Part shown: positions 37,209-53,288 of the stretch, piece after piece | How positions within the stretch are numbered: the stretch's first letter is position 1 | Layout of the letters: the number at the start of each line of letters is the position of its first letter | From: Streptomyces sp. NBC_01351 | GTDB lineage: Bacteria; Actinomycetota; Actinomycetes; Streptomycetales; Streptomycetaceae | NCBI RefSeq assembly: GCF_036237315.1 | Contig: NZ_CP108356.1 | Coordinates: 4,088,501-4,152,500 of the forward strand | DNA: 64,000 nucleotides | Direction of reading: 5' to 3' | Translations under genes and position numbers: made by a program | Notes under the pieces: model-generated | The model's input: the letters and a program-made list of their open reading frames with translations, nothing else | Told to the model about the DNA's origin: nothing | Database searches by the model: none

Positions 37209-38540
37209 ATGACTCAGGGGGCCGGTCAGGGACCCGCGATGCGGACGGAGACGCTGCGGGACTTCCGGGTGCCGGTCGGCGAACCTGTCACCGAACCCGC
37301 CCCGTACGCCGTATCCGCCGGGATTCCCGGCGAGGCTCCCGTGTACGGCGAGTACCCCGCGTACTACGCCGACGGCGGCGTCGAACCCCACGCCGAGACG
37401 TACGACGAGCCGTACGGCGAGGCCTACGCCAAGCCTTACGCCGAGCAGTACGCCGACCACTTCACCGAGCCCCCGGCTGGGCCCCCGGCAGGACCCCCGA
37501 CTGGGCCCCCCGCAGGATTCGCGGAGATCCCCGCCGCGCGCCCCGCCTCCGGCCCCGTCCTCATGAGCCGGGCTCCCGAGGAGCCCGAGGACGAAGACCC
37601 CGAGGGCTACACCCCCACCTTCCGCGACCTGCCGGTCATCGGCCGCGGCGCCCTCGGCGGCCCCGGCGACACCGTCCAGGTCACGTACGTCCCCCAGGAC
37701 GACCAGGCCGCCGGCCCGGGCCCGCTCTACGTGGTCGGCGACGTCCACGGCTACCTCGACGAACTCGTCTCCGAGCTCCGGGTCCAGGGCCTGATCGACG
37801 CGGACTGCCGCTGGTCCGCCGGAAACGCCCGGCTCTGGTTCCTCGGCGACTTCACCGACCGCGGCCCGGACGGCATCGGCGTCATCGACCTCGTCATGCG
37901 GCTCTCCGCCGAGGCCGCCGCCGCCGGCGGCTACTGCAAGGCCCTCATGGGCAACCACGAGCTGCTGCTCATCGGCGCCAAGCGGTTCGGCGACACCCCC
38001 ATCGCCTCCGGCGCCGGCACCGCCACCTTCCAGGCCGCCTGGCTCCTCAACGGCGGCCAGCGCACCGACATGGAACGCCTCCAGGACGTGCACCTGCAGT
38101 GGATGTCGCGCCTCGACGCGGCCGTCCTGGTGGAGGACCACCTCCTGCTGCACTCCGACACCACGGCCTACCTCGACTACGGCGACTCCGTCGAGGACGT
38201 CAACGACACCATCCACGAGCTGCTCAACCGCGGCGACGCCGACATCACCTGGGACCTCTTCCGCAAGTTCACCAAGCGGTTCGCCTTCCGCGACGAGGAG
38301 ACCGGCCCGCAGGCCGTGCGCGAACTGCTCGGGACGTACGGCGGCAGCCGCGTCGTACACGGCCACAGCCCCATCCCCTACCTGCTCGGCGAAGTGGGCA
38401 CCGAGGACGGCGACGAGTCACGCGGCCCCGAGGCCGTCGACGGCCCGCACGTGTACGCGCAGGGCCTCGCCATCGCGATGGACGGCGGGGTCACGATGGC
38501 GGGCAAGCTTCTCGTCGTACAACTCCCGCTGAGCAACTAA
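37209..38540 (+). CDS. Metallophosphatase (Ser/Thr phosphatase-like) with a disordered N-terminus
   Basis: A 443-residue protein. The ATG at 37209 follows GGAGGGGTCG and gives MTQGAGQGPAMRTE. The first 150 residues are low complexity with Tyr/Pro/Glu/Gly repeats (EPYGEAYAKPYAEQYADH, GPPAGPPTGPPAG). From about residue 175 the calcineurin-like domain carries the metal-binding set GDVHGYLDEL, LGDFTDRGPDG, GNHELL and VHGHSP. It probably removes phosphate from proteins or nucleotides. The N-terminal tail may tether or localise it. Confidence 0.9.
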   Translation: MTQGAGQGPAMRTETLRDFRVPVGEPVTEPAPYAVSAGIPGEAPVYGEYPAYYADGGVEPHAETYDEPYGEAYAKPYAEQYADHFTEPPAGPPAGPPTGPPAGFAEIPAARPASGPVLMSRAPEEPEDEDPEGYTPTFRDLPVIGRGALGGPGDTVQVTYVPQDDQAAGPGPLYVVGDVHGYLDELVSELRVQGLIDADCRWSAGNARLWFLGDFTDRGPDGIGVIDLVMRLSAEAAAAGGYCKALMGNHELLLIGAKRFGDTPIASGAGTATFQAAWLLNGGQRTDMERLQDVHLQWMSRLDAAVLVEDHLLLHSDTTAYLDYGDSVEDVNDTIHELLNRGDADITWDLFRKFTKRFAFRDEETGPQAVRELLGTYGGSRVVHGHSPIPYLLGEVGTEDGDESRGPEAVDGPHVYAQGLAIAMDGGVTMAGKLLVVQLPLSN

Positions 38541-38578
38541 GGGTTCACGCATAGGAGTTGGCGGCTTTTGTGCCGTCA

Positions 38579-38598
38579 GATCACTCTTTTGAGTGATC
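38579..38598. repeat. Perfect hairpin upstream of the TnpB-type gene
   Basis: GATCACTCTTTTGAGTGATC: 8-bp arms around TTTT, 62 bp before the gene. Its position suits a left-end hairpin of an IS200/IS605-like element, but the element boundary cannot be set. It could instead be a terminator of the metallophosphatase gene, whose stop is 38 bp away. Confidence 0.5.
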
Positions 38599-38660
38599 GT
38601 GCGTTCGAGTGAGTGTGGTTACGGTCGTGGGCATGAACCTGAAGGAGTCGGCGGCGCAGG

Positions 38661-40307
38661 GTGGCTGAGCCGGGAAAGCAGCTCCGAGCGATCGCTTCGC
38701 CGTTCGTTGCCCTGGGCCCGTCGGGTGTGTCGATTCGTGACCGTCTCAAGGGACTGACCGGCGAGGACGAGACGCTGTTGCGGCTCGTCGGCGCGCACCT
38801 GGGGGCCTTGGCCGGGCGGGACCTCAAGGCCCGGTGCGCTGACGCTCTACAGCATTCCAACGAGTCGTGGGCCGACCGCAAGCGCGACCTGACCGCGTTT
38901 TCGTCGTCCCGGTGGGCCGGGAGTCTGACGAAAGCCACGCATGACCAGTGGTCGCTGTCCCGTCGCGCTCAGGCCACCCACCTGGCTGGGCTTGATGCGG
39001 GGATCCGCATGCTCCGCCACCGCCTGTCCCTCCCGATCGGGGAACAGAACACCAAACGAGCTCCAGGTGGCTACCGGTCACAGCGTGAGTGGTTTGCCAA
39101 GTCACGCCGTCTCGCGTGTCTGGAGGAACGCCGCGAGCAGGTCGCTGCTGACCGTAATGCCAGCCGGGTTCGTGTCGTGCGCGGTGGCCGGAAACTGGCG
39201 AACACCCGCCACCACCTGGAAGCTGCCGGGCTCACCGAAGCTGAGTGGCGGGAGCGGTGGGAGGTCGCACGCTGGTTTCTGTCCGCGGACGGCGAGTCGG
39301 GTAAACGATTCGGGAACGAGACGATCCGGGTCACCCCCGACGGTGAGGTCAGCATCAAGCTGCCCGCCCCGCTCGCCGGATACGCCAACAGCAGGAACGG
39401 GCGGTACACGCTGACGGCGCGTGTCGCATTCCCTCACCGGGGCACGGAGTGGCGTGACCGGGTTTCGGCGGATCGGGCCGTCGCCTACCGCATCCACTAC
39501 GACAGCTCACGGGGCCGCTGGTACCTGGACGCCGCCTGGAGCCGCCCCGCTGTCCAGACGGTGCCCCTTGCTGCGGCCCGCGCGAACGGCATCGTGGGCG
39601 TGGACACCAACGCGGACCACTTCGCCGCCTGGCGGCTCGACTCCCACGGCAACCCCGTCGGTGATCCCCACCGTTTCCCCTACGAGCTCACCGGCACCAC
39701 CCAGCACCGGGACGCGCAGATCCGCCACGCCATCACCCAACTTCTCCACTGGGCGCAGCGGTGCGGGGTTCAGGCGATCGCCATCGAAGACCTTGATTTC
39801 ACCGAGGAGAAGACCCGGGAGAAGCACGGCCGACGGAAGAAGTTCCGGCAGCTGATCTCCGGCATTCCCACAGGGAAGCTCCGCGCACGGCTCGTGTCGA
39901 TGGCCGCCGAGCAGGGTCTGGCGGTTGTCGCGGTCGATCCTGCGTACACCAGCGTGTGGGGCGCGCAGCACTGGCAGAAGCCGATGGCCGCGCCCCAGCG
40001 CACCACCACCCGACACGATGCCGCAAGCATCGCGATCGGACGACGCGCCCTCGGGCACCCGATCCGGCGACGGACGGCACCGCCCCACGACGACCAGAGC
40101 GATCGTCGTGGGCATCGGACCGTCCAGGCCGGACCGGGCACCCGAGGGCGTGAGGAAACCCGACACCGCGTTCCCGGACCACGCACACGATGCGCGCAGC
40201 CCGGACACGGAGAGAAAGCGGGCAACCAGCACGCCCAACACCGTTCGGGGCGCGCGGCTGAGAGAGACAAGTCTTGGCAACAGGACACACTCCCACTCGG
40301 TTTCTAG
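38661..40307 (+). CDS. tnpB: TnpB-related RuvC-type nuclease (IS200/IS605 family)
   Basis: A 548-residue protein. RuvC motifs are complete: D315 in GIVGVDTNADHFAAW, E376 in AIAIEDLDF, D453 in TRHDAASIAIGRRALGH. A helical N-terminal half with Arg/Lys-rich segments would bind RNA and DNA. Unusual points: the CxxC zinc ribbon normally between motifs II and III is absent (VDPAYTSVWGAQHWQKPM instead). The last roughly 88 residues after motif III are Arg/Gly/Pro-rich with no TnpB homology, and their DNA forms a long hairpin. No tnpA is next to it. GAAGGAG lies about 15 nt before the GTG, which is far, so the start is only fairly secure. I recall this zinc-ribbon-free type as common in Streptomyces. 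Confidence 0.88.
   Translation: MAEPGKQLRAIASPFVALGPSGVSIRDRLKGLTGEDETLLRLVGAHLGALAGRDLKARCADALQHSNESWADRKRDLTAFSSSRWAGSLTKATHDQWSLSRRAQATHLAGLDAGIRMLRHRLSLPIGEQNTKRAPGGYRSQREWFAKSRRLACLEERREQVAADRNASRVRVVRGGRKLANTRHHLEAAGLTEAEWRERWEVARWFLSADGESGKRFGNETIRVTPDGEVSIKLPAPLAGYANSRNGRYTLTARVAFPHRGTEWRDRVSADRAVAYRIHYDSSRGRWYLDAAWSRPAVQTVPLAAARANGIVGVDTNADHFAAWRLDSHGNPVGDPHRFPYELTGTTQHRDAQIRHAITQLLHWAQRCGVQAIAIEDLDFTEEKTREKHGRRKKFRQLISGIPTGKLRARLVSMAAEQGLAVVAVDPAYTSVWGAQHWQKPMAAPQRTTTRHDAASIAIGRRALGHPIRRRTAPPHDDQSDRRGHRTVQAGPGTRGREETRHRVPGPRTRCAQPGHGEKAGNQHAQHRSGRAAERDKSWQQDTLPLGF
40046..40150 (+). ncRNA. Candidate omega-RNA scaffold hairpin at the tnpB 3' end
   Basis: The arms pair almost continuously from 40046-40055 with 40141-40150 (CGCCCTCGGG/CCCGAGGGCG). 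Inward, 40058-40061 pairs with 40135-40138, 40063-40068 with 40128-40133, 40072-40077 with 40120-40125, and 40084-40093 with 40103-40112 (CCCACGACGA/TCGTCGTGGG). That makes about 36 base pairs and a 9-nt loop. It begins right after the RuvC-III codons. In characterised systems the guide RNA of TnpB overlaps the 3' end of its gene and runs to the element's right end. Processing and function are inferred. Confidence 0.5.
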
Positions 40308-40450
40308 GAACGGTATTTCCGGAAAGCCCCTGTCACGGCGTGGTGTGGGCGCTCTACCATCGCTCTATCCGTAGCAGGCTCTCCTCCGTTTGTGCCGGCG
40401 CCCGGGTCTACGCGGGCATACCGGCTTCTACGGAGCATCGGGGGATGCAC

Positions 40451-41260
40451 ATGACCAGCGCTCCGCACCTGCTGACCGAAGACCGACCGGAGTTCGATCG
40501 GCTCCTCGACGAGGCGCTGCGCACCGCACACGAACGGCCCGAGCTCGCCACCCTCGGCGAACGGCTGAACGCCGAACAACTGCGCACCATGGCCCTCGGG
40601 GCCCGCGCACTGCTCACGTCCGCCGCCGCGGCCGAGTACGACCACTACGTGAAGGTCCGCGAGGAACGCCGCGACGAGGTCCTCTCCACCCCGGGGAACA
40701 CGGGGGACGAGCACGGTGAGCAGGACAGCGGCGGTGGCGCGGGCGTCAGCGCGGTGGTCGCGGTCCTCGCGCCCGTCCTGGCGGGCACGGCCATGCTGAT
40801 CTTCCTGCTCGTGGGCTACGGCCTGAAGATGGTCGAGCCCGAACCCGCCTTCGCGGAGACGATGCTGACGGCCGGTTGGCTCTTCGGCGCGCTCACCGCG
40901 GCCGGCCTGCTCTTCGCCGTGATCGCTCTGCTGGTGACGGCCGTCCGCAACAGCGCGACCGAGGTGGGGGTGGCCGAGACCGAGGCGGTACCCGACGAGG
41001 TCGCGCGGGCCAGGGAAGCCTGGCGCAATGCCCTGCTGGAGCGGGGGATCATGCCGTTCCTGCGGGACGCGCTGGCCGATCCGAGCGCGGGCCCGGGGCT
41101 TCCCAGGCCCCGCAGGGGTGGCAGCCGGATGCCCGATCTGGGCTACACGGCACCTGATTTCACGAGTCCGGGGGCCCCCAACGAGGGCCCCCGGCCGGGT
41201 TACACGTCACCGGACTTCACGAGTCCGGACTTCGGCGGCCCGGAGCACGAGCCGGACTGA
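40451..41260 (+). CDS. Hypothetical two-helix membrane protein with repeated C-terminal motif
   Basis: A 269-residue protein. GGGGG lies 6 nt before the ATG at 40451, which I prefer to the ATG at 40445. The N-terminal 75 residues are soluble (RPEFDRLLDEALRTAHERPELATLGERLNAEQLRTMALGARALL), then two membrane helices (about 102-124 and 140-162), then a cytoplasmic or outer tail. The tail carries a repeated 10-residue motif, GYTAPDFTSP, GYTSPDFTSP and a partial copy. I recognise no family. It lies between the TnpB gene and the collagen-like genes and is convergent with the latter. Confidence 0.82.
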   Translation: MTSAPHLLTEDRPEFDRLLDEALRTAHERPELATLGERLNAEQLRTMALGARALLTSAAAAEYDHYVKVREERRDEVLSTPGNTGDEHGEQDSGGGAGVSAVVAVLAPVLAGTAMLIFLLVGYGLKMVEPEPAFAETMLTAGWLFGALTAAGLLFAVIALLVTAVRNSATEVGVAETEAVPDEVARAREAWRNALLERGIMPFLRDALADPSAGPGLPRPRRGGSRMPDLGYTAPDFTSPGAPNEGPRPGYTSPDFTSPDFGGPEHEPD

Positions 41261-41329: not shown

Positions 41330-42241
41330 TCAGCCGAGCTTGGCCCCCTTCGGGACGTCCAGCTGCGACGCCGCGGAGCGGCTCAGGGGGACGACACCGC
41401 TCGGGCCCGGAATCCTCTGGGTCCAGGGACCCGCACCGTCGTCCTGCGGGACCATGGGGTCGTCCGTGCAGTCGAGCTCGAAGTTGCGCGGCGTCACCGG
41501 GTCGCCCTCGGGGACGACGAAGCAGAGGGTCTCCCAGAGCTGGTTGGACTCGGTCAGCACCTGGATCGAGACGTTGTTCGCCTGGTGCGCGATGGAGATC
41601 GCGCACGCGTCCGACGGGTAGTTCGTGTGCGGCGGGTTGATGGTGAGGTTGTGCCAGCTGAACTCGGTCGTGTTGGGGCCGTTGAACGAGCCCTGGGTGT
41701 CGCGGATACCGACGAAGGCGGTGCGGTCCGCCGTCAGAGCGGCCTTCACCTCCCAGGCGTTGTTGTCCGCGACGGCGTCGACGTCCACGCACCTCGCCGG
41801 ACCGGTCGCACCCGTCGGGCCCGTGGCACCGGTCGCGCCCGTCGCGCCCGTCGCACCGGTCGCACCGGTCGCACCCGTGGCACCATCCGCGCCCGGCTCA
41901 CCCGGGTCACCGGTCGCGCCCGTGGCGCCGGTGGGACCCGTCGGGCCGGTCGGGCCCGGCTTGCCCTTGTCGCACCTGTCGTCACCGACGGGCCCGGCAA
42001 CCTCGGAGAGCGAGGCCGACTTCGGCTTGTAGTTCGGCTTGTGGGGCTTGCAGGGGTCGCTGCCCACGGCCTCCGCCACCCTGGCCGTCTCCGCGGCCTG
42101 AACGGTCTGGCCGACGGCGAACGCGGGACTGGCGACTCCCATCAAAACCAGGGTCATCGATGCGAGGGTTCCGCCGGTCAGCCAGCCACTGCGCCGGGGC
42201 AGGGGGCCGAGGGTTGACCTGGTCTTGTTCTCGGGGCTCAT
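41330..42241 (-). CDS. Secreted collagen-like protein 1
   Basis: A 303-residue secreted protein from the ATG at 42241 (GAAGGAG 8 nt upstream). The first 45 residues are basic ([13 protein letters not shown]) then a hydrophobic signal segment ([17 protein letters not shown]). After a spacer, 19 uninterrupted Gly-X-Y triplets follow, mostly G-A-T and G-P-T. A globular C-terminal domain of about 150 residues holds paired cysteines ([35 protein letters not shown]). No sortase or anchor motif is present. Structure resembles Bacillus BclA-type stalk-plus-head proteins. The partner at 42456-43508 is a tandem paralogue with a conserved upstream region. Confidence 0.9.
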
Positions 42242-42455
42242 GTACGCCGCTCCTTCTCGATCCGGATCGAACGATGTGCGAGGGGGTCTTTCGACCGCCC
42301 CGGCCATCGTGAGGATCCCGGCCCCAAGCGGCAGGACACCTCGCAGGAAAGTCCACTTATCGGACTAGTGATACGCACCCAATGGCGGCGGCCCGGAGCA
42401 AGCGCCGGACTGAATCGTCCGACGGCGCTCCGGGCCGCCCGGGGTTACTGCTGCA

Positions 42456-43508
42456 CTACTTCTGGTTCAGCATCTTGCGGTCCGTGAGGACGTCGAGCTT
42501 GCTCTTGAACCTGTCGAGCGGCGGGGCCGGCGGGCCGTCCGAGCCGGGGGTCGGGGTGGACAGCTGCTCCCAGTCGTTGCCGCAGTCGAGGACGAACCCG
42601 ATTTCGGGGTCCGTGTCCTGGTTGATCGCGCAGGTGATCTCCCAGACTTCACCCCCGGTGGTCAGCACCTGGACCGAGACGCCATCCTCCGCGTTGGTCT
42701 GGGCGGCGATGGAGATGGCGCAGGCGCCATCCGGGAAGTCGGTCTCGGTGTCCGTCAGGTCGTACCAGAGGAACGGCGTCGGCTCCGGCGTCAGGTCTCG
42801 GATACCGGCGTACGCAACGTCTCCGCTGAGCACGGCCTTGGTCTCGTTGGCGTTGCTGGGGGTGTAGGCGTCGACGTCGCTGCACACGCTGGCGCCGGTC
42901 GCACCCGTGGCACCCGTCGCGCCCGTCGCGCCCGGGGCACCGTCCTGGCCGTCAGCACCGTCGGCACCGGGGGGACCCTGCTCACCCGTCGCACCCGTCG
43001 CGCCGGTCGCGCCGCCGCCCGGACCCGTCGCGCCCGTGGCGCCCGTCGCGCCCGGGGCACCGTCCTGGCCGTCAGCACCGTCGGCACCGGGGGGACCCTG
43101 CTCACCCGTCGCACCGGTCGCACCCGTCGCGCCGCCGCCGCCCGGACCCGTCGCGCCGGTGGCACCCGTGGCACCGGTGGCACCCGTCGCGCCGGTGGCG
43201 CCCGTGGCACCGGTGGCGCCCGGCTTGCCCTCGTCGCACTTGTCGTCGCCGTGGGGTCCGTCCAGCCAGGCGTCCGCTCCCCACGGGTGGTCCTCGCCCG
43301 GCTCGCCGTGGTGCTCCTCGCAGGGGTCACCGGGAGGGTTCGCCGCCACTACCGCCTGCGTGGCCTGGATGGTCTGGCCCGCGGCGAGCGCGGGGGTGGC
43401 GACACCCATCAAAACCAGGGCGAGCGAGGCGAGGGTTCCGCCCGTGACCCAACCGCTCCGCCGGGGCAGGGGGCCGAGCGTCGACCTGGTCTTGTTCTCG
43501 GGATACAT
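42456..43508 (-). CDS. Secreted collagen-like protein 2 (tandem paralogue)
   Basis: A 350-residue paralogue from the ATG at 43508 (GAAGGAG upstream). The signal peptide matches that of protein 1 almost word for word ([18 protein letters not shown]...[19 protein letters not shown]). The stalk is longer, about 110 residues of Gly-X-Y interrupted by G-P-G-G-G kinks, and carries a 40-residue internal duplication containing [19 protein letters not shown]. The C-terminal head ([46 protein letters not shown]) aligns with protein 1. The glycosyltransferase divergent from it could modify stalk threonines. Likely displayed on the hyphal or spore surface; inferred. Confidence 0.9.
42921..43115. repeat. 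120-bp direct repeat inside the collagen stalk
   Basis: 42921-42995 and 43041-43115 are identical over 75 bp at a spacing of exactly 120 bp. That equals 40 codons, so the reading frame is kept. It looks like a recent in-frame duplication in the stalk. Confidence 0.85.
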
Positions 43509-43683
43509 ATACGCCGCTCCTTCTAGAAACCGGATCCAACGATGTGCGATGGGGCCTTGTGGGCCGCCTCGGTCATAGTGGTGATCGGATTTCAAGAGCG
43601 GTGGGACGCCTCGCAACGAGGTCAACAGATCGGACCAGTAATGCGCCCCCGAATGGCGCCTTTCTCGTATTGCGGTCACGCTT

Positions 43684-43703
43684 CCTTGCAAGCCATTGCA
43701 AGG
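43684..43703. promoter_or_regulatory. 20-bp inverted repeat upstream of the glycosyltransferase
   Basis: CCTTGCAA-GCCA-TTGCAAGG, perfect 8-bp arms, 49 bp before the glycosyltransferase start. It lies in the 244-bp divergent region with collagen-like gene 2 and could serve either promoter. Confidence 0.55.
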
Positions 43704-43752
43704 ATCCCTACCGTCGACGTGCGACTTACGGGCACTGTCATCACCACAGTGG

Positions 43753-44874
43753 ATGGGATCCTTGAAAGCAACAGTCTGCTTGAATATGATCGTAAAAAAT
43801 GAGGCCCCCGTGATCCGGAAGTGTCTGGAGTCGGTGCGCCCTTTGATCGATACATGGGTGATCGTGGACACCGGCTCCACCGACGGCACTCAAGAGATCA
43901 TCCGAGAATTCTTCAGCGATTTGCCCGGAGTGCTGCACGAGCGGCCCTGGAAGGGGTTCGACGGCAGCCGCAGCGAGGCCATCGACCTCGCCCGCTCCAG
44001 CGCGGACTACCTGCTGTTCATCGACGCCGACGACGTGATGGAAGTACAGCCCGGTTTTCGCATGCCGGACCTGAGCCACGATCTGTACAGCGTCGCAATT
44101 CACCACGCCCCCGTCATTCACTGGCGTCCCGCACTGGTGTCGACCCGATTGCCGTGGCGATACGTCGGCGTACTCCACGAGTACCTGGAGTGCGAATCGA
44201 CCCGGTACAGCCGTGGAGTTCTCGAAGGCGCCAACATTCTCATCGTCGGCGGTGGAGCACGCCTCAGGGAAGGCGGCGAGCGGCAGAAATACCTGCGCGA
44301 CGCGGAGGTTCTGGAACAGGGCCTCCTCAAGGAACCGAAAAACGCCCGCTACGCGTTCTACCTCGCCCAGAGCTGGCGCGACGCGGGAGAACCGGAGAAG
44401 TCCCTGGCCGCCTACGACCGCCGGGCGGGCATGGGCGGCTTCGCCGAGGAGGCCTTCTGCTCCCAGCTCTACGCGGCGCGGATCGCGGCAAGCCTCGACC
44501 GGCCGCGGGCCGACGTGATGGACCGCTTCCTGCGCGCACACGAGAGCCGCCCCACGCGCGCCGAGGCGCTCGGCAGCCTCGCCCGGATCTGCCGGCAGCA
44601 GAGCCGCTTCCCGCTGGCGTACGTGTTCGCCCGGCAGGCAGCACTGATCCCCCGGCCGGAGGACATCCTGTTCGTCGAGTTCGACTGGTACGAATGGCGC
44701 GCGCTCGACGAACTCGCGGTGGCCGCCTACTGGGTCGGCGAGTACCGGGAGTCTTCGGACTGCTGCGAACGCCTCCTGGAGTCGGACAGGCTGCCGGCCG
44801 ATCAGCGCGACCGCGTCCGCGCCAACCTCGACTTCGCACGGCGCAAGCTGGACCCGCACCTCGTCCCCGCCTGA
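43753..44874 (+). CDS. Family 2 glycosyltransferase with helical-repeat C-terminus
   Basis: A 373-residue protein. The N-terminal 200 residues are a GT-A fold: [43 protein letters not shown] binds the nucleotide sugar and [10 protein letters not shown] is the DxD metal site. The C-terminal half has TPR-like helices ([32 protein letters not shown]). This layout is common in glycosyltransferases that modify peptides. I chose the ATG at 43753, just before the conserved N-terminus, but no ribosome site precedes it. The first 60 bases are AT-rich for this genome. It is divergent from collagen-like gene 2. Confidence 0.88.
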
Positions 44875-53096: not shown

Positions 53097-53110
53097 GAGG
53101 GCCGTGGAAA

Positions 53111-53145
53111 GCGGTCCGAGCCTCCCCCCTCATGGCTCGGACCGC
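53111..53145 (+). terminator. Terminator after ptpA-lyase operon
   Basis: Perfect 12-bp arms GCGGTCCGAGCC/GGCTCGGACCGC with an 11-nt loop of Cs and Ts, 15 bp after the stop. Confidence 0.85.
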
Positions 53146-53288
53146 CCCGGTTCATCGGGGGAGAACCACCGCCGAGAACCACGCGACAAGGCTAGTTGAC
53201 TCAGCGTCAGAGTCCAATCACGGTAACGACAGGGGCCTATCCGCATATTTATAGTTGAAGGCCCCCACCGAGAGGTCGAGGTGCCGCC

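Follow-up and report, generated by a model that had tools for sequence, protein, structure and literature searches.

A structured RNA at the 3' end of a Streptomyces tnpB as a probable guide-RNA scaffold of a variant IS607-type transposon

The tnpB gene analysed here lies in a 64,000-nt stretch of Streptomyces sp. NBC_01351 (contig NZ_CP108356.1, positions 4,088,501 to 4,152,500; hereafter the window, by whose numbering all positions are given), and the 105-nt hairpin near its 3' end is very probably the 5' part of the guide RNA (omega-RNA or reRNA) encoded at the right end of an IS607-type transposon. The hairpin is most likely only the first domain of a scaffold of about 269 nt (40046-40314), which overlaps the tnpB frame in everything but its final 7 nt and ends with the element itself, host flank following at once. 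The sequence supports reading it as the omega-RNA of an IS607 TnpB variant, with a scaffold nearly all inside the gene, a GT core, a D-E-H site and no zinc ribbon. An initial annotation, made from the window's letters, had read the hairpin as a guide-RNA scaffold; this reading was upheld, and the right end, empty sites, an IS607-type tnpA in relatives and a guide-flanking pseudoknot were added to it.

Relatives came from one scan of species genomes, which returned 365 stretches encoding a relative of the protein; the best 80 of 365 were kept (best-segment identity 66-87%; 73 carry Streptomyces in the title). The 8.9-Mb genome of the strain itself holds three long open copies, the window's included, and pieces of two more. 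An alignable 3' end was present in 83 loci, including the window.

Folded singly, the window copy of the hairpin formed one arm of 40 pairs at -77.6 kcal/mol, beginning after the RuvC-III codons of the open frame 38661-40307, and none of 200 dinucleotide shuffles was as low (mean -46.5; z -8.22). Across 82 loci including the window (81 distinct rows; L003 left out), 89.9% of the pair cells held standard pairs, 16 of the 40 pairs changed on both sides (296 such cells against 115 when shuffled), and the covariation score was 0.231 against 0.073 +/- 0.004 in shuffled alignments. Sliding the partners by 1-3 columns abolished the signal (score at most 0.071). The apical stem was hypervariable yet almost always paired, six adjacent pairs alternating among GC, CG, AU and UA with pairing retained; in the basal stem covariation was found at inner pairs. 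Fold and covariation together confirm the long hairpin of the initial annotation and its nested pairing, with the pair count raised from about 36 to 40.

The 164 nt between the hairpin and the right end (40151-40314), which lie beyond the coordinates first annotated, were as strongly structured. In an alignment of 78 rows (L003, L022, L053, L042 and L049 left out for divergence, insertions or lack of a right-end match), 95.7% of the cells of 31 pairs were paired, both sides changed in 17 pairs, and the score was 0.274 against 0.101 shuffled. Covariance, which had been proposed as a check on the annotation, was present in the stems of both parts. Near the right end, the loop strand ACCGTTC (40240-40246) is the exact complement of the terminal GAACGGT (40308-40314), forming a putative pseudoknot of which six of the seven pairs were kept in at least 77 of the 78 rows and the seventh in 61. 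With a restrictive pattern search the two strands could be read in 80 of the 83 loci, in every one of which 6 or 7 of the 7 positions pair; pairing was also kept in L122 and L123 (45-46% protein identity). Excerpts of PMC10711439 describe a pseudoknot joining guide-adjacent bases to a stem-loop in IS200/IS605 and IS607 reRNAs, required for ISXfa1. The 3' stem-loop is weaker than the other parts, since the pairs of its stem (40257-40262 with 40296-40301) held in 34-65 of 78 rows at the given columns and a per-sequence search detected a stem of 5 bp or longer in 60 of the 78, though the stem was sometimes a different one.

Nucleotide conservation among the 83 loci was high through T40314 and then dropped immediately to about 0.3-0.5, which argues that different host DNA follows each copy. 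Ten relatives (L089-L098) had the empty site, which reads ...GGGT and then the bases found after 40314 in the window; two differed slightly (an extra A in L096, substitutions in L097). GGGT also precedes the left end in 23 of 24 tnpA-bearing copies. The simplest account is insertion by recombination without target duplication, at a GT core that follows G-rich DNA, as judged at one site with ten empty relatives. A GG core was rejected and GT chosen, because GG requires a 2-nt length change relative to the closest empty sites (L089, L090) and GT none. With a GT core and no duplication, the right-flanking T would be fixed and the guide would start at 40315. The guide had first been placed after 40307; the conservation drop, the comparison with empty sites, suggested by the initial annotation, and the left-end alignment moved its start by about 7 nt.

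The left end was placed by the same empty-site junction and by alignment with L119 and the 24 tnpA-bearing loci. A serine-recombinase tnpA (a gene like that of L031) stands directly upstream in 24 of the 83 loci; of the 59 without it, L009, L023, L057 and L071 had less than 250 nt upstream and could not show one. The L031 TnpA, the one protein checked, matched the resolvase family PF00239 (6e-17), and the element is therefore assigned to the IS607 type. The window has tnpA only as a remnant, whose start resembles that of the L119 tnpA (MNLKGWAKAQG); the 15 nt through the tnpB start codon are identical to those of L012, a tnpA-bearing locus. Having lost tnpA, the window copy would be mobile only with a transposase in trans. 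Elsewhere in the genome, L151 (C1:3134314-3134868, minus strand) is an open serine-recombinase tnpA with 57% identity to the L031 TnpA, near a zinc-ribbon TnpB match, and could supply one. Near the left end, 38579-38598 is a perfect palindrome (GATCACTC-TTTT-GAGTGATC) with close versions in L119, L002/L120, L012 and L046, perhaps a transposase-binding site.

A covariance model of the hairpin matched 12 of 61 genomes of the genus, the strain's own included. Among 27 loci examined (26 from the genus scan and one other; six further matches lay outside this set), a TnpB core stood upstream in 23, its end no more than 50 nt from the hairpin; the remainder were one internally deleted copy and three loci with neither TnpB nor right end. 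These three (L164, L165, L171; E 1e-13 to 3e-12), with a hairpin away from tnpB, were considered as independent RNAs and rejected, no right end being matched in any. Part of the 3' block is present in L165 and L171, and both resemble truncated remnants. The well-kept hairpin of L164, from another genome of the genus, stands alone.

The putative scaffold is written over a reading frame. With the window as reference for 78 loci (L003, L054, L059 and L070 left out), third positions diverged by 0.465 in the core against 0.204 within the hairpin, and the ratio of third to mean first and second position divergence decreased from 2.32 in the core to 1.43 and then 1.26. This drop points to RNA-level constraint on the overprinted frame; free synonymous change in the stems, named at the outset as what would speak against a scaffold, was not what was found. 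In 67 of 81 copies 7 nt separate the tnpB stop from the right end, and 76 of 81 share one length modulo 3, which is compatible with frame-keeping. An open frame as proof of a protein tail was rejected, since 71 of the 81 copies also have frame +1 open, compared with 76 that have the true frame open. The Arg/Gly/Pro-rich tail noted initially is present, and residues 470-548 are predicted to be disordered (AlphaFold predicted local distance difference test, pLDDT, below 50).

The protein scored over the cut-off of one family profile, TIGR01766 (32.6 against 32), but under those of two others given below, and has a TnpB/Cas12f-like fold with RuvC (Cas12f structures PDB 9i8y and 7wju). In an alignment of 47 of the 85 available proteins, D315, E376 and H452 were invariant (47 of 47), the RuvC-III position thus carrying His in every protein where Asp is normal; this position was assigned by motif and helix start, the hhalign profile comparison with canonical TnpBs having ended at residue 432. 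A comparison set of canonical Streptomyces TnpBs had Asp in 11 of 11, the set being picked by that motif. The residue after the His was Asp in 39 of 47. At that residue L028, L048, L074, L076, L081 and L084 have Ala, Gln or Glu, and L003 and L122 have His. No CxxC zinc ribbon was found between RuvC-II and RuvC-III, and no Cys occurs at residues 425-460 in the 47 proteins. The TnpB of ISDra2 has the canonical RuvC-III Asp and a zinc ribbon, and Cas12f has a zinc ribbon. The His in place of Asp, the missing ribbon and a following Asp in only 39 of 47 would fit a TnpB that no longer cuts, its RNA being the omega-RNA of an RNA-guided binder or repressor. This is unlikely, although less so than the other alternatives below: an invariant D315/E376/H452 would be odd for a dead site, and excerpts of published work describe His143 as the third active-site residue of Thermus RuvC, active but less so than with Asp (PMC3834835), H983 of SpCas9 modelled as a metal ligand (PMC8112549), and cleavage by GtFanzor1 with Asn in its triad (PMC11423790).

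Several results weigh against a sense-strand guide RNA with the fold given above. Seven pairs of hairpin columns 13-20/86-93 were broken, and hardly ever compensated, in 17-38 of 81 rows; RNAalifold omitted these pairs with default scoring and mostly retained them with RIBOSUM scoring. Conserved in the family are a basal, a central and an apical stem, and in its middle third the hairpin lacks a conserved helix; because these pairs break in relatives, the initial description of a nearly continuous hairpin holds for the window copy and not for the family. The pseudoknot pairs are nearly invariant, covariation there coming from one copy (L042, a row outside the 78-row alignment, with both strands altered at one pair). 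The profile for guided TnpB, NF040570, scored 49.3 against a cut-off of 100, and PF07282 scored 17.2 against 26.3, both below. The remaining adverse results concern the strand. The minus strand of the window hairpin folded deeper (-94.3, z -9.8) than the plus strand (-77.6, z -8.2), and its z was lower in 33 of the 41 loci folded on both strands (41 of 82 hairpin rows and 39 of 78 second-block rows were so folded). Consensus folds were likewise deeper on the minus strand for the hairpin (-55.2 against -32.7; -116.7 against -97.4 with the other scoring) and for the second block (-39.8 against -25.7; -91.1 against -85.9). Within the named pairs, A-C mismatches exceeded G-U pairs (263 against 113 cells), as did single-step events on the tree (113 against 65), at all three codon positions (mutation control, every seventh core column).

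Antisense RNAs repress some insertion-sequence transposases, and the deeper minus-strand folds of window and relatives, the consensus energies of both blocks under both scorings and the A-C excess would all fit a cis-encoded antisense RNA as the structured molecule, beginning near the right end and repressing tnpB. Much of the A-C excess falls in pairs 3-103, 10-96, 29-78 and 32-75, all four absent from the sense-strand structure that RNAalifold gives with default scoring (it joins 32 to 78). In the second block the sense strand had the slightly lower mean z (-2.16, antisense -1.88; 39 loci). In a control of nine canonical Streptomyces TnpB 3' ends, from 22 loci looked at, where a sense omega-RNA is expected from ISDra2, default scoring gave the minus strand the deeper consensus energy (-40.7, plus strand -31.5), and the second scoring favoured the plus strand (-78.8, minus strand -72.8); since the control was split between scorings, folding energy was not taken as decisive. 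No sigma-70-like promoter was found on either strand of 38500-40500, a weak test in Streptomyces. The sense strand is preferred because the guide would lie at the 3' end, the adjoining pseudoknot beside it and the edge of conservation at the right end, features that best fit a sense RNA entering host DNA; an antisense RNA is accordingly considered very unlikely.

Pairing might also be conserved as DNA, as a terminator-like or transposase-binding palindrome or through template switching during replication. The apical pairs mostly change on both sides together (14-21 double changes per pair on the tree), as in template switching or whole-hairpin exchange, and G-U is not favoured. Conservation also extends, however, to unpaired stem-adjacent bases, to the separate second block and to pseudoknot strands 61 nt apart, no T-run is found in the sequence after 40150, and IS607 ends are described in excerpts of PMC6188088 with short direct repeats rather than hairpins. 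Pairing without an RNA function is thus highly improbable, and a sense-strand guide RNA is retained.

Among known systems, ISXfa1 TnpB and its reRNA (IS607; excerpts of PMC10711439) resemble the present element in the serine-recombinase transposon, the fixed dinucleotide core, the fixed right-flanking base that is part of the scaffold, the guide-flanking pseudoknot with a stem-loop and the G-rich motif beside the target (GGG in ISXfa1), and differ in an reRNA of about 150 nt against about 269 nt here and in a GG core against GT. The motif searches outlined there require a zinc finger and then Asp, both absent from the window TnpB. ISDra2 (IS200/IS605; excerpts of PMC8612924) likewise forms its guide RNA from the tnpB 3' end and right end, with the guide from the host flank, but has a Y1 transposase and an reRNA of about 150 nt; a CRISPR guide and a dimer belong, in the same source, to Cas12f and set it apart. 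RAGATH-18 reRNAs (excerpts of PMC11061315) share the IS607 partner and a structured RNA adjoining tnpB; there, in contrast, the reRNA is called totally independent of the coding sequence, TnpB has about 390 aa and 97.8% of strains are Firmicutes. The RAGATH-18 Rfam model had no match in the whole window at the gathering threshold, nor in 39900-40400 at E up to 10. Rfam MIR5387 matched on the minus strand with E 0.0021, but its 27.6 bits lie below the cut-off of 69, and the match was put down to chance similarity with a GC-rich hairpin. Excerpts of PMC10278001 mention a RuvC-III-rearranged clade, RIII-r4, as well as TnpBs of up to 550 aa and scaffolds of up to 466 nt, groups to which the window TnpB could belong. 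A Streptomyces TnpB of this kind was not named in the paper titles among the matches listed from the open-licence literature. This clade may already be listed in the large survey of TnpB diversity by Altae-Tran and others.

The features are collected in Table 1. Outside the element, neighbouring minus-strand frames at 41330-42307 and 42456-43889 encode collagen-like proteins with Gly-Ala-Thr repeats and similar N-terminal regions, and 53106-53241 (minus strand) matches the Rfam Streptomyces small RNA Scr3920 (90.8 bits).

Table 1. Positions of the element, its genes and the predicted parts of its guide RNA in the window
Feature	Positions	Strand	Remarks
tnpB-only derivative of IS607-type element	38557..40314	+	GT core 38557-38558 to GT core 40313-40314, no target duplication
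tnpA remnant	38633..38668	+	MNLKESAAQGG and stop (11 codons); looks like tnpA start fused to tnpA end
tnpB, 548 aa	38661..40307	+	RuvC-I/II/III positions held by D315/E376/H452; zinc ribbon absent; tail disordered from about 470 to 548
5' extended hairpin of scaffold	40046..40150	+	fold, shuffles, covariation, RNAalifold
Second structured block	40159..40222	+	stem 40159-40162/40219-40222 enclosing covarying hairpin 40180-40185/40191-40196
Stem-loop bearing pseudoknot loop	40229..40255	+	stem 40229-40236/40248-40255 covaries
Pseudoknot loop strand ACCGTTC	40240..40246	+	pairs with 40308-40314
Likely 3' stem-loop	40257..40301	+	40257-40262 with 40296-40301; two sequence classes, misaligned by MAFFT
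Right-end terminal strand GAACGGT	40308..40314	+	directly 3' of tnpB stop; last scaffold bases before guide
Predicted guide (host DNA)	40315..40334	+	20-nt length assumed; same or closely similar host sequence beside GGGT in ten empty relatives

In the mechanism proposed, the tnpB messenger would run past the right end into host DNA, and the last 269 or so bases of the element would fold into the 105-nt hairpin, the second stem block and the stem-loop whose loop pairs with the final GAACGGU. After processing, TnpB would bind this scaffold and use the host bases from 40315 as guide. The target would be the empty (or sister) site, with these host bases behind the G-rich ...GGGT, the putative target-adjacent motif, and its cleavage would favour return or retention of the element.

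The elements may, tentatively, represent a separate lineage of IS607 TnpBs in Streptomyces and its relatives, with a D-E-H site like that of Cas9 or Thermus RuvC and without a zinc ribbon, and with nearly all of a scaffold of about 269 nt overprinted on a translated, disordered tail. If so, ribosomes that translate as far as the stop, 7 nt short of the right end, would unfold the scaffold; translation would then contend with guide-RNA formation for the same bases, and the nuclease would be self-limiting. For this group of actinobacterial TnpBs the analysis predicts an exact guide RNA, core site and motif. Set against the RAGATH-18 IS607 systems with their gene-independent guide RNA, it suggests that overlap of guide RNA and gene is not a trait of IS200/IS605 alone, and, if H452 is catalytic, the range of known TnpB active sites would be widened.
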